NCBI GenBank assembly: GCA_913042035.1
Contig: CAJWIN010000006.1
Location: 1-38,509 of the forward strand
Direction of reading: 5' to 3'
Length of the DNA: 38,509 nt
From: an uncultured Gammaproteobacteria bacterium
Lineage (GTDB): Bacteria; Pseudomonadota; Gammaproteobacteria; Poriferisulfidales; GCA-002705445
The notes under the pieces were generated by a model. That model worked only from the letters and a program-made list of their open reading frames with translations, was not told the DNA's origin and searched no databases. How positions within the stretch are numbered: the first letter of the stretch is position 1; each line of letters begins with the position of its first letter. Of this stretch, positions 27,637 to 32,506 are shown piece after piece. The position numbers were made by a program, and so were the translations under genes.

Positions 27637-29118
27637 ATGAAATATATTGCATATTTTTTATTAGGCGGGTTATACACACTATCCTTTTCACCCTATAACA
27701 TTGGTATATTTTCTATTATAAGTGTTATGTTATTTTTATTTTTTATTAACCTTGATGATGTAAGATCGTCAATTTATAAAACCTTATCTTATTCATTAGG
27801 ATATTTTTCTATTGGAACTTATTGGTTATATAATGTTATTATTAACTATGCTGAAATAAATAATTTCCTAGCAATTTTTTTAGTTATATTCTTTACCATA
27901 TATTTATCTATTTTTTTTGTTATTCCAATGTGTTTTACATTGTTTGCTCGCCACAAAATAAAAATTAATGAAAATTATTCATTTATAATATTATCAATTT
28001 TAATAACAGTATTTGAAATTATTAGAGCGCATTTATTTACTGGTTACTCGTGGTTTAATTTTGGTCAGGCCGCTTTAAACACTCCTTTAGATTATTATTT
28101 TCCAGTTTTTGGTGTTCATGGACTAACTTTTATCATTTTTTTAATATCACTTATATCGATTAATATATCTATAAATAAAGATAGATCATTCTCTTTTATT
28201 TTAGCAATTTTTTTGATAATTATTTATTTAGGAGTTTATAAAAAAAATTGGACCTACGAAACTGGTAATATTTCAACTATTTCTATAGTTCAACCAAATA
28301 TTGAAAATAAAAAAAAATATAGTAAGCAAGATATAGAAAATCGAATGAAAATCTTAAAGAATTTAACTTTGTCATCTATAAAAAATTCATCTGATATTAT
28401 TCTTTGGCCAGAAGCACCATTACCAATTTTATATAAAAATTTAGAAAAAAATTATTATGAAAATATTATTAAAAATATTCCTAAAAAAACTACTCTTATA
28501 GCTGGTTCTTTTTATAAGAATAATAATAATATTTATAATTCAATCATTAATATTTCTGATAAATCTACTAATGTATATAGTAAAAGACATTTGGTGCCAT
28601 TTGGAGAGTTTCTTCCATTTAGAAATAAGTTCTCCAATATTTATAAAACACTTGGTATAAATACTTATGATATTACACCTGGAGATTCTAATAAGAAATT
28701 TAGTATTAATAGTTTAATTGCTCAACCTTTAATTTGCTATGAAAGTATTTTCTCTTCTGAGTCTCTTGTATTAGATGAAGATGTGGATTTTATTTTGAAT
28801 GTTTCAAATGATGGATGGTTCGGCGATACTTTAGCTCCGTATCAACATCTTGATGCCTTGGTAATGCGATCTCTAGAGAATCAAAGATATTCAATCAGAT
28901 CTACTAATACTGGAATCTCAGCTATTATTAACCATAAAGGTGTAATTGAAGACTTTATACAGTTCAATAAGACTGGGATCATAAACAAAAAAATTATTTC
29001 AAGAAATGGAAACACACCTTTATCAAGTCATGGGTATGACATTCTTTATTCTTTATTTTTTATAGTATTCTTATACAGTACAGTTTATTTCAATATAAAA
29101 TTATTTAGGCGTTTATAA
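27637..29118 (+). CDS. lnt: Apolipoprotein N-acyltransferase
   Basis: Lnt adds the third acyl chain to lipoproteins at the periplasmic face of the inner membrane. The 493 residues (E. coli 512) have about six N-terminal hydrophobic segments, a nitrilase-fold periplasmic domain and a C-terminal helix. The catalytic triad is Glu259 (WPEAPLP), Lys316 (YSKRHLVPFGEFLPF) and Cys367 (PLICYESIF). It closes the phoH-ybeY-corC-lnt operon and its last 14 bases overlap the convergent mfnB-like gene. The usual neighbours leuS, lptE and holA do not follow. Confidence 0.96.
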   Translation: MKYIAYFLLGGLYTLSFSPYNIGIFSIISVMLFLFFINLDDVRSSIYKTLSYSLGYFSIGTYWLYNVIINYAEINNFLAIFLVIFFTIYLSIFFVIPMCFTLFARHKIKINENYSFIILSILITVFEIIRAHLFTGYSWFNFGQAALNTPLDYYFPVFGVHGLTFIIFLISLISINISINKDRSFSFILAIFLIIIYLGVYKKNWTYETGNISTISIVQPNIENKKKYSKQDIENRMKILKNLTLSSIKNSSDIILWPEAPLPILYKNLEKNYYENIIKNIPKKTTLIAGSFYKNNNNIYNSIINISDKSTNVYSKRHLVPFGEFLPFRNKFSNIYKTLGINTYDITPGDSNKKFSINSLIAQPLICYESIFSSESLVLDEDVDFILNVSNDGWFGDTLAPYQHLDALVMRSLENQRYSIRSTNTGISAIINHKGVIEDFIQFNKTGIINKKIISRNGNTPLSSHGYDILYSLFFIVFLYSTVYFNIKLFRRL

Positions 29119-29797
29119 TAACGTTCTTTGAAATTTTTACTAAGTTAACAATATTATTAACATTAGTAGCTGAGATTTTCGAACTTCTCATTTTTTTATC
29201 TTCACAAAGTGCTCCTCTAAAACCCATATAATTTGGATTAAGTTTTACTATTTGATTTATATGTGAACTATTTATAGAACCTGCAATACCTGTTAACAAA
29301 TTTAAATTTTTAGCGTTTAATATGAAATTATGAACATCAATATCGCTGACATGATTAAAAAGGTTTCCAGAATTCTTATTAGAGGTGTCAATCATGACTC
29401 CAGAAAAACCAGATTTTTTTAATATTAGAATCTCTTCATTTGTAGGTAGAAACTTATCAGCAAAAAAAACTGCTATAAGTTTTTTACATGATTTAATTTT
29501 TGATAATGTATTAATATAATTATTTTCATAAACTCCAATTTTTATAAAATCTACATCCGTATTACTGAGCTCTCCAACAATTTCAGAAATTAAATCTTTA
29601 TTATTTGGCAAATCTCCAATTGTAGAGCTTGTTAATTTTTTTTTATCTATAAAGTTAATAATATCTTTTATATCATTATTTTCTAGCTTTCCTAATGCGC
29701 CATTTGATGGATCTTTTAAATCTATAATATCTATTTCAGTATCAATGAGAATTTTTGCTTCTGATATATTTTTTATGCTAGCTAATATTTTAGACAT
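29105..29797 (-). CDS. MfnB-like (5-formylfuran-3-yl)methyl phosphate synthase
   Basis: MfnB makes the furan precursor of methanofuran from two molecules of glyceraldehyde 3-phosphate. The 230-residue product aligns, from memory, with the archaeal MfnB all along: DIIDLKDPSNGALG (Schiff-base Lys28, archaeal Lys27), SSTIGDLP, DFIKIGVY (Lys86), VMIDTSNKNSGNLF (Lys141), GIAGSINSSHI and FRGALCEDKKMRSSKIS. It is a cytosolic TIM-barrel protein. It starts inside the DUF447 stop (TAATG), so the two are coupled. In bacteria this family is known almost only from methylotrophs using tetrahydromethanopterin and methanofuran. It is as AT-rich as its neighbours, so any transfer was not recent. Confidence 0.85.
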   Translation of the reverse strand: MSKILASIKNISEAKILIDTEIDIIDLKDPSNGALGKLENNDIKDIINFIDKKKLTSSTIGDLPNNKDLISEIVGELSNTDVDFIKIGVYENNYINTLSKIKSCKKLIAVFFADKFLPTNEEILILKKSGFSGVMIDTSNKNSGNLFNHVSDIDVHNFILNAKNLNLLTGIAGSINSSHINQIVKLNPNYMGFRGALCEDKKMRSSKISATNVNNIVNLVKISKNVIINA

Positions 29798-30366
29798 TAT
29801 TTTATGTTTTTCCTATATGTATTTATATAATCGTTCAACCATTTCCAAGCTTCCAACTCATTTCTTCCTGCAGTTTTTTCAATTGCTATATTTAAATATT
29901 TAATTTCATTTTTTATCTTTTCGTCATCAATTATGCCTAATCTAGAAGCAAGTATACAAAGCTCTAAAACTGCTGATTTTGCTCTATTTAGACCATAGTA
30001 CATTCTATGTATTTCTTCGTTCACAGGCTTACATATAATAGTTGGTCTCAAATTATCATCTTTTACATGGTCTATAATAAACTCTGTATGAGAAACTGCT
30101 GATTTTATTCTAGAGCAGTCAATTTTATCAACTTTTGTTAATTCTATCTTTAGGTCGTTTTTAACTATGCATGATGCAAATACTCTTACATCGTCTACGT
30201 AGTTTATCACACCTGATTTATTTCTTAATATGTTATCTAATGAAATGGATGGCTTAAATGGTTTTATTCGCAAAATCTCTTCGTCAATATATATTCCAAG
30301 AGGAGATATTTTTATTGTATTATCAATATTTTTTGTTGTAACTATAGTTTCTCTTACGTAAGTCAT
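29797..30366 (-). CDS. DUF447-family protein
   Basis: I recognise this as a member of the DUF447 family, which is predicted to have an FMN-binding split-barrel-like fold and is found in methanogens and in the tetrahydromethanopterin gene clusters of methylotrophic bacteria. Its reaction is not known. The 189 residues begin MTYVRETIVTTKN and include ISPLGIYIDEE, a VRVFASCIVK strand near the middle, and the ending AGRNELEAWKWLNDYINTYR. No signal peptide or membrane segment is seen. It lies between the DHPS-like and MfnB-like genes, one base overlapping the latter and 13 bases from the former, which supports a cofactor-synthesis role by association only. Confidence 0.75.
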   Translation of the reverse strand: MTYVRETIVTTKNIDNTIKISPLGIYIDEEILRIKPFKPSISLDNILRNKSGVINYVDDVRVFASCIVKNDLKIELTKVDKIDCSRIKSAVSHTEFIIDHVKDDNLRPTIICKPVNEEIHRMYYGLNRAKSAVLELCILASRLGIIDDEKIKNEIKYLNIAIEKTAGRNELEAWKWLNDYINTYRKNIK

Positions 30367-30379
30367 TTTTGATACACTT

Positions 30380-31777
30380 TTACTTTAATTTTCTCATCGT
30401 GTGGCCAGCTGTCTTAAATTTCATTATATCATCTTCCGATATTTCAACAGAACAGCCCCATTTAAGAATTTCATCCTGGTCGTACCTTTTTCCCAATAGA
30501 AAGGCAATTTCAGCTCTTGCTAGCTCCATACCTAAGTAATAAGCATGTCCGTCATCATTTTTAATATCTAGATGCTGATAAAATTCAGCTGCATCTTGTT
30601 CGGTATAAAAGTTTTTATTATTGAAGACATGAATTCCATCTTGATTAACGTAAATTCTATAGTTTTTATCCTTAACATTGCTCCACATTTCTTTAAGTTC
30701 GCTTGTTGAATATGGAAATGGTTTCCTTTCATGTAAATTAAGTAATTTATTTGAAATATCTTTTGGCGGCATACTATATGTTTTGGTTGTGTGCATAATT
30801 CTTCTTGCAAAATTTCCTTCAATAATGGCTTTATTACAATGTTCGCTTACCTGAGTACATAAAGCATAATTAATTTCTAATTCTGATGCTATGCCAAAAA
30901 GTAAAGCATTCATCCCAGCAGTATCTGCATGGGTAAGTTCTGTGAGATTGCCTATGCCCATCATTATTTCCACACTGGGGAAATTTTTTCTAAAGCTATG
31001 ATATCTTACTATTGAATCAGTAAATCCAAAGTTTATTGGTTCTAATATTGAATCAGCAATAAATTCTTTATCATCTTTTAACAATTTTTCTATTAGTTTA
31101 TAGAATTTTTTTTCTTCCCTAGGATAGTCTGGTATCACAATTGGAATAGCTTCTACTTCATCCATTATCCAGATAGACTTTTCTTGTAAGCTTAGTAAGA
31201 AATCTGCACCTGCTTTCGCACCACTAATTAAATTTTTTTCATCGAGTGAATCAATACTTACCATAAAATTTTGATTTTTTAATTCCTGTATAGTTTCAGA
31301 TAAATGTGGAAACTCAGTACTTGGCAGGCAACCAATATCAATTATATCTGCTCCATCTTTTTTATAAGTATTTGCTTGTTTAATTATTTCTTTTACTGAC
31401 ATATTCGGAGCTTCAGTAATTTCACCAATAATTTTTGTATCATATTTACTTAGATCTAAATTTTTACCTTGTAAACCTAAAAATCTAGGAATATCTTTTA
31501 GCTCTTCTGGCCCTCTAACACACTTTTTTCCTGAGTAATTTTCTAAATCTTTTATTTCACCTCTGCATCTTCCAGGAATAATAATCTTTGTTGCCGCGAG
31601 AACATCTTTCAGATCAAGTTTTTTTATAATTATATTAACAGTTGCTAAAGCCGCAACGTTTACACCTATATCTATAACATCATAGGTGAATTCGTTTTTA
31701 GAGCTTATATCAGACAAGACTTTTTCAAGTGATATTTTTGCAAGCTTGCCTGTTAAAAATACTATATGTTCATTCAT
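30380..31777 (-). CDS. Dihydropteroate synthase-like protein (DUF6513 type)
   Basis: This 465-residue protein is first in the minus-strand trio. It has an N-terminal domain with the PGRCRGE motif, a pterin-binding TIM barrel in the middle (about residues 110-345: GADIIDIGCLP, MVSIDS, MGIGNLTELTHADTAGMNA) and an alpha/beta C-terminal domain. The barrel resembles dihydropteroate synthase, but the flanking domains and the length (folP is about 280 residues) mark it as the archaeal and methylotroph type believed to act in tetrahydromethanopterin synthesis. It should not be taken as folP. The exact reaction is not established. A promoter must lie in the 90-base gap shared with nadD, but none is clear on this strand. 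Confidence 0.8.
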   Translation of the reverse strand: MNEHIVFLTGKLAKISLEKVLSDISSKNEFTYDVIDIGVNVAALATVNIIIKKLDLKDVLAATKIIIPGRCRGEIKDLENYSGKKCVRGPEELKDIPRFLGLQGKNLDLSKYDTKIIGEITEAPNMSVKEIIKQANTYKKDGADIIDIGCLPSTEFPHLSETIQELKNQNFMVSIDSLDEKNLISGAKAGADFLLSLQEKSIWIMDEVEAIPIVIPDYPREEKKFYKLIEKLLKDDKEFIADSILEPINFGFTDSIVRYHSFRKNFPSVEIMMGIGNLTELTHADTAGMNALLFGIASELEINYALCTQVSEHCNKAIIEGNFARRIMHTTKTYSMPPKDISNKLLNLHERKPFPYSTSELKEMWSNVKDKNYRIYVNQDGIHVFNNKNFYTEQDAAEFYQHLDIKNDDGHAYYLGMELARAEIAFLLGKRYDQDEILKWGCSVEISEDDIMKFKTAGHTMRKLK

Positions 31778-31801
31778 AAATCTTATTTTAATACTCCAGA
31801 A

Positions 31802-31830
31802 TTGTATATTTTATTTTGTTTTAGCATAAT
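31802..31830 (+). promoter_or_regulatory. Possible nadD promoter
   Basis: TTGTAT (31802-31807), a 17-base spacer and CATAAT (31825-31830) lie in the divergent gap. Transcription would begin near 31837, about 30 bases before nadD. No Shine-Dalgarno sequence precedes the nadD ATG. The mirror strand has only weak -10-like elements for the DHPS-like operon. Confidence 0.4.
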
Positions 31831-31867
31831 GTACACTAATTAAAAATAATTATTTAATTTTGTTTAT

Positions 31868-32506
31868 ATGATAGGAGTTTTCGGCGGTAGTTTTGATCCA
31901 ATCCATTTTGGACATATAAATCCTTTAATAGATCTCTCAAAACAGTTTAATTTATCAGAAATTAAGCTAATCCCAACTTATCGCTCAGCTGTTGGTAAAA
32001 CATTCCATGCAGATTTTAAACACAGATTGAATATGGTCTCAATAATAGCTTCATCAGAAACAAATAATTTTAGAGCAGAGGATCTAGAAATAAGAAAAAA
32101 AGGCATATCATATACACATGAAACTATCAAAATTCTTAAAAAAGACAATAAAAAAGAAGATATTTGTCTAATAATGGGATTAGATGTATTTCTAAATATT
32201 GAAACTTGGTATAATTACGAAAAAATTTTAAAAGAAGTTAATATTTTGGTAATCAATAGACCTGGATTTGAAATAAATAAGATGAATAGCATGGGAACTC
32301 TTATTAGGGATAGGATTTCAAAAAATAAAAAAGATTTTTTAGAAAGTAAAGAGAAAAATATTTTTTTTCATCAAGCACCTCTTATTGATATATCATCGTC
32401 GTCTATAAGAGATATAATTAAAAAAGATAAAGATCCAATAAAAAAAATTCCAGGATCAATAATGTCATATATTAAAAGAAATAACCTATATGTAGAATAT
32501 GAGTAA
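31868..32506 (+). CDS. nadD: Nicotinate-nucleotide adenylyltransferase
   Basis: NadD converts nicotinate mononucleotide and ATP to deamido-NAD. The 212 residues (E. coli 213) begin with the nucleotide-binding motif GGSFDPIHFGHI and end with the SSSSIRDIIKKD motif that contacts ATP, both diagnostic. The HETIKIL segment and WYNYEKIL fit the family. It starts the nadD-rsfS-rlmH order, and its last eight bases overlap rsfS. Confidence 0.95.
   Translation: MIGVFGGSFDPIHFGHINPLIDLSKQFNLSEIKLIPTYRSAVGKTFHADFKHRLNMVSIIASSETNNFRAEDLEIRKKGISYTHETIKILKKDNKKEDICLIMGLDVFLNIETWYNYEKILKEVNILVINRPGFEINKMNSMGTLIRDRISKNKKDFLESKEKNIFFHQAPLIDISSSSIRDIIKKDKDPIKKIPGSIMSYIKRNNLYVEYE

Follow-up and report, generated by a model that had tools for sequence, protein, structure and literature searches.

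The three genes at positions 29105-31777 of the window (the whole 38,509-nucleotide stretch of DNA analysed) very probably constitute a conserved operon for the biosynthesis of two cofactors, tetrahydromethanopterin (H4MPT) and methylofuran. Together with mfnE-, mfnF-, mfnD-, and orf17-like genes and pabB on another contig of the same genome, the trio would supply the coenzymes used by the Fae, MtdB, Mch, Ftr, and Fwd enzymes of related genomes, which were probably missed in the window genome through gaps in its assembly. A near-complete H4MPT/methylofuran system is retained in a streamlined marine gammaproteobacterial genus without PQQ methanol dehydrogenase, which contrasts with the planktonic Methylophilaceae, in which H4MPT/methylofuran functions were lost during genome reduction (PMC5020050). 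The trio and its neighbours were assigned to families by profile searches with Pfam and NCBIfam as follows.

27637-29118, plus strand, lnt (PF20154 and PF00795), the convergent left neighbour of mfnB
29105-29797, minus strand, mfnB, encoding (5-formylfuran-3-yl)methyl phosphate synthase of 230 aa (PF04476, E = 2.5e-54)
29797-30366, minus strand, gene for a DUF447 protein of 189 aa (N-terminal PF04289, E = 9.6e-22; C-terminal PF20766, E = 8.1e-17)
30380-31777, minus strand, gene for a DUF6513 and DHPS-like protein of 465 aa (PF20123, E = 1.2e-20; TIGR00284, E = 9.7e-59)
31868-32506, plus strand, nadD (PF01467), the divergent right neighbour of the DUF6513 gene

All three ORFs of the trio are intact. 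The Pfam and NCBIfam matches bear out the three families (DHPS-like/DUF6513, DUF447, and MfnB-like) named in an earlier note on this DNA, which had also described the genes as adjacent, overlapping, and located on one strand; the adjacency and the common strand hold, but the overlap is slight, with a single base (TAATG) shared by the DUF447 gene and mfnB, and 13 nt separate the DUF6513 and DUF447 genes. The 3' ends of mfnB and lnt overlap tail to tail by 14 bp, and the 90-bp interval separating the trio from nadD (31778-31867) probably contains both promoters.

MfnB matches PF04476 over its full length (184.9 bits against a cut-off of 22.4). Its score against NF002576, a model named 'hypothetical protein', is 205.6 bits, below the equivalog cut-off of 297; the equivalog label is withheld, and the family assignment is kept on the basis of the Pfam match and the predicted active-site residues. 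The protein also matches the structures of MJ1099, the MfnB of Methanocaldococcus jannaschii (4rc1 and 4u9p; E = 9.4e-18), and residues D26, K28, K86, D137, and K141 correspond to D25, K27, K85, D151, and K155 of MJ1099, the first four of which we take from the MfnB literature to be active-site residues. Lys155 has been named as a catalytic residue of MfnB (PMC11365854). All five residues are invariant in 22 of 22 homologues. The window protein and MJ1099 share the family and these five residues, but they are distant in sequence. The condensation of glyceraldehyde-3-phosphate is a known step of archaeal MfnB, and the family and active-site residues suggest that the window MfnB would likewise convert two molecules of glyceraldehyde-3-phosphate into the furan precursor of methylofuran, which would be the first committed step of furan synthesis.

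The DUF6513 protein scores 199.2 bits against TIGR00284, below the hypothetical-equivalog cut-off of 256.65, and hence is referred to only as DHPS-like; it shows 78-87% identity within the genus. Because the relative G008 encodes a separate FolP, this protein is not regarded as the folate DHPS. It would most likely join the pterin and the ribofuranosyl-aminobenzene half of H4MPT, or act in a neighbouring step. MJ0301, a shorter archaeal DHPS, is a biochemical precedent for such a coupling step; the DUF6513 protein more closely resembles the TIGR00284 type, the function of which is unproven. Both the N- and C-terminal domains of the DUF447 protein score above the Pfam cut-offs (77.5 and 61.4 bits, respectively), and it has solved but uncharacterised structural relatives (3b5m, E = 1.2e-14; 2nr4, E = 0.0034). 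Its position in the gene order suggests that it may act in the same pathway as MfnB and the DHPS-like protein. We take the DUF6513/DHPS-like protein to be of the orf19 type and the DUF447 protein to be of the orf20 type; a literature search on DUF447 and DUF6513 yielded nothing relevant in open-access papers. MfnB is homologous to Orf22 of Methylorubrum, in which Orf21 and Orf9 are the homologues of MfnE and MfnF, respectively (PMC8141765).

The trio is located between lnt and nadD in seven other assemblies, six from the same genus as the window genome (G001, G003, G004, G006, G007, and G008) and one from a sister genus of the same family (G011). Including the window genome, the arrangement was found in eight genomes of the family and in all seven genomes of the genus that contain lnt and nadD. 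The genomes of the genus without MfnB and DUF447 (G002, G005, G009, and G010) lack lnt and nadD as well, so the absence of the trio is attributed to assembly gaps. In family f2, the trio adjoins lnt, and HTH-like and recJ-like genes (named by eye) precede nadD; in the f3 genome G014, the trio is at another site, and in a genome of another family (G062), it lies beside a recJ-like gene (also named by eye). The trio has probably occupied this site at least since families f1 and f2 diverged. Many families of the class have loci with the fixed gene order DUF6513-DUF447-MfnB, and the grouping is therefore not due to chance. In a three-protein tree, the genus and f2 were grouped with strong support, and the window sequences clustered with the genus at 99-100% support; the deep branches lack resolution, and the composition of the sequences is uneven. 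Neither this tree, with the lack of resolution of its deep branches, nor the G+C content (28.6% in the trio versus 29.3% in the genome) gives any sign of a recent transfer. These data, like the recurrence of the site in eight genomes of the family, agree with the earlier note, in which the composition was said to match that of the neighbours and a recent arrival was discounted. The note had proposed searching for the trio at the same locus in relatives, and both this location and the contiguity with lnt and nadD were confirmed in the other assemblies. It had also placed the trio where leuS-lptE-holA would join lnt to nadD; the trio does lie between lnt and nadD, but leuS has not been lost, nor has an lptE-like gene (identified by eye), and both are located beside the mfnE cluster on contig C1 of the window genome (11390-21184). 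In Escherichia coli, leuS and lptE adjoin nadD. Misassembly or contamination as the reason for the position of the trio, conceivable in a draft genome of 37 contigs, is refuted by the identical arrangement in the seven other assemblies, and the matching G+C content and the clustering with the genus also argue against it; its probability is negligible.

The window genome (G000; a 720-kb draft assembly, 73.5% complete) carries a second biosynthesis cluster beside leuS, which contains an orf17-like gene and the following genes.

C1:16577-21184 cluster, MfnE-like protein (NF040622, 63 bits)
C1:16577-21184 cluster, PabB (TIGR00553, over the cut-off)
C1:16577-21184 cluster, MfnF-like protein (TIGR03123, 207 bits)
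C1:16577-21184 cluster, MfnD-like ATP-grasp protein (NF040722, 90 bits)

The scores of the MfnE-, MfnF-, and MfnD-like proteins are below the NCBIfam equivalog cut-offs, whereas that of PabB is above. The product of PabB is a precursor of p-aminobenzoate, which is needed for H4MPT. Methylofuran formation in Methylorubrum or Methylobacillus requires orf5, orfY, and orf17 (PMC8141765). No match to Fae, Mch, or Ftr was found in the 720-kb, 73.5% complete assembly, and an AfpA-type flavoprotein (the reductase of the last H4MPT step) was not found in the whole assemblies of G008 or the window genome. The first of these results is what would be seen if formaldehyde oxidation had been lost in this species and only scattered biosynthesis genes had been kept, but such a loss is very unlikely, considering that the three ORFs of the trio are intact and conserved, that the second biosynthesis cluster is intact, and that the gaps with the missing genes end at contig ends. 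In a whole-genome comparison with G008 (577 reciprocal best hits with a median identity of 73% and long collinear runs), the G008 blocks missing from the window genome were those at 437-529 kb (fae-mch, mtdB, and RFAP synthase), 300-349 kb (second fae), and 34-58 kb (serine cycle), together with contig C6 (fwd/ftr). The genes flanking these blocks are situated at the very ends of window-genome contigs, and the blocks also hold housekeeping genes, e.g. genes judged by eye to be gltX-like and purL-like. Because the gaps match contig ends, the absence of the central genes points to incompleteness rather than loss. A role of the trio in the synthesis of some other pterin or furan cofactor is also highly improbable. 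Neither DUF447 nor DUF6513 has a proven function, and some archaea of the control set, e.g. Haloferax and Sulfolobus, have DUF447 but no MfnB match; nevertheless, the association of MfnB with MfnE-, MfnF-, and MfnD-like partners and the presence in the order of Fae, Mch, and Ftr (19, 18, and 18 of 20 genomes, respectively) directly fit H4MPT and methylofuran. With biosynthesis of H4MPT and methylofuran as the preferred role, the link to a C1 pathway drawn in the earlier note is upheld, and its wording that the organism 'has or had' this pathway can probably be sharpened to 'has'. A search for the remaining genes in the same genome, also proposed there, failed to recover fae, mch, and ftr but recovered the MfnE-, MfnF-, MfnD-, and Orf17-like genes and pabB.

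The trio itself is an unremarkable, well-conserved component of a pathway of a known kind, whereas the surrounding pathway is unusual: the genus has no PQQ methanol dehydrogenase, FwdABCD is of the archaeal type, the gene for a formyltransferase paralogue (FTR2) lies next to those for 5-formyl-H4F cyclo-ligase (MTHFS) and FolD in a serine-cycle cluster, and formate-H4F ligase is absent. The host is an uncultured marine gammaproteobacterium of an order that includes Candidatus Porisulfidus. The suggestion that it is SAR86-like found no support among the relatives compared: the near ones are marine MAGs and single-cell genomes of uncultured Gammaproteobacteria, including two records filed as Thiothrix, and the most complete relatives have genomes near 1.1 Mb. 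The marine group E01-9C-26 (PMC6003095), another candidate for the host clade, was discounted on account of its genomes of about 5 Mb. In G008, fae, a citG-like gene, a myfB/mptN-like gene, mch, a myfA-like gene, mtdB, and the RFAP synthase gene lie in a row. PQQ alcohol dehydrogenase (TIGR03075 over the cut-off) was found in no member of the genus and, among the 20 genomes of the order, only in G016; XoxF, considered as a formaldehyde source, was found in neither G008 nor the window genome.

The genes for FwdABCD and Ftr are located together on contig C6 of G008 (L201:3982-9143), beside ferredoxin-like and ferredoxin-NADP-reductase-like genes (both named by eye). FwdB of G008 scored 319-384 bits against archaeal and other Fwd-type structures (372 bits for 5t5i) but only 52 bits against the hydrolase subunit FhcB of Methylorubrum extorquens (6s6y), and it retains the archaeal SVCHGPS metal-ligand motif and a CxxCxxxC motif. 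With this FwdB and a separate FwdD, the system resembles archaeal FwdABCD and differs from it in being bacterial. Stand-alone FwdD is encoded in the relatives, including G008; FwdD-sized ORFs scoring >50 bits were detected in 9 of the 10 other genus members, G011, 5 of 6 f2 genomes, G016, and three genomes of other families. This differs from a 2016 article, according to which Proteobacteria lack FwdD (PMC5020050).

FTR2 lies next to the MTHFS gene at C2:41079-42633 of G008 (L206:1079-2633), and further loci were identified (L255 and L260-L301). It shares 36-38% identity with Fwd/Fhc-linked formyltransferases and forms a separate clade (support 100/100) together with Planctomycetota sequences. 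MTHFS precedes FTR2 in 35 of 42 loci, and FolD follows FTR2 in 29 of 42; serine-cycle genes lie beside FTR2/MTHFS in most of the gammaproteobacterial loci, and in G008 no MTHFS gene other than the one adjoining FTR2 was found. Formate-H4F ligase over the cut-off was found in none of the 20 genomes of the order and was absent from 29 of 30 genomes with FTR2, although a control search showed it to be absent from E. coli as well, and its absence alone is weak evidence. This context suggests, as the simplest reading, that formyl groups are shunted from methylofuran to folate. We give an even chance to the prediction that FTR2 moves the formyl group from formyl-methylofuran to N5 of H4F, after which MTHFS would form methenyl-H4F and FolD would lead to the serine cycle, replacing formate and formate-H4F ligase, while the archaeal-type Fwd, with ferredoxin-like genes alongside, would process the other formyl groups as CO2, perhaps in a reversible manner. 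Alternatively, FTR2 may act on H4MPT. A literature search for a route from formyl-methylofuran to folate yielded nothing relevant in open-access papers, and its novelty is provisional; if the shunt exists, FTR2 would connect the methanogen-type C1 system directly to the folate-type one at the formyl level.

The gene families are those of the archaeal-like cluster of M. extorquens and other methylotrophs (orf5, 9, 17, 21, 22, and orfY; PMC8141765), with MfnB, DUF447, and DUF6513 adjacent and MfnE-, MfnF-, and Orf17-like proteins and PabB present. Unlike in that cluster, the genes are split, with the trio at lnt-nadD, mfnE-pabB-mfnF-mfnD-like near leuS, and fae-mch-mtdB elsewhere (in G008), and unlike methylotrophs with the M. 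extorquens-type cluster, the genus has no PQQ methanol dehydrogenase. TMED127/Methylaequorales, an order of streamlined marine methylotrophs with an H4MPT island, likewise combines small marine genomes, H4MPT genes, and the serine cycle, but its members are Alphaproteobacteria with xoxF5 (PMC12542740), whereas the genus described here has no PQQ alcohol dehydrogenase over the cut-off. A second, divergent fae, absent from f2 and f3, is present in most f1 genomes and is located in G008 at C2:331248-331796 (L220:11248-11796), away from the C1 clusters.
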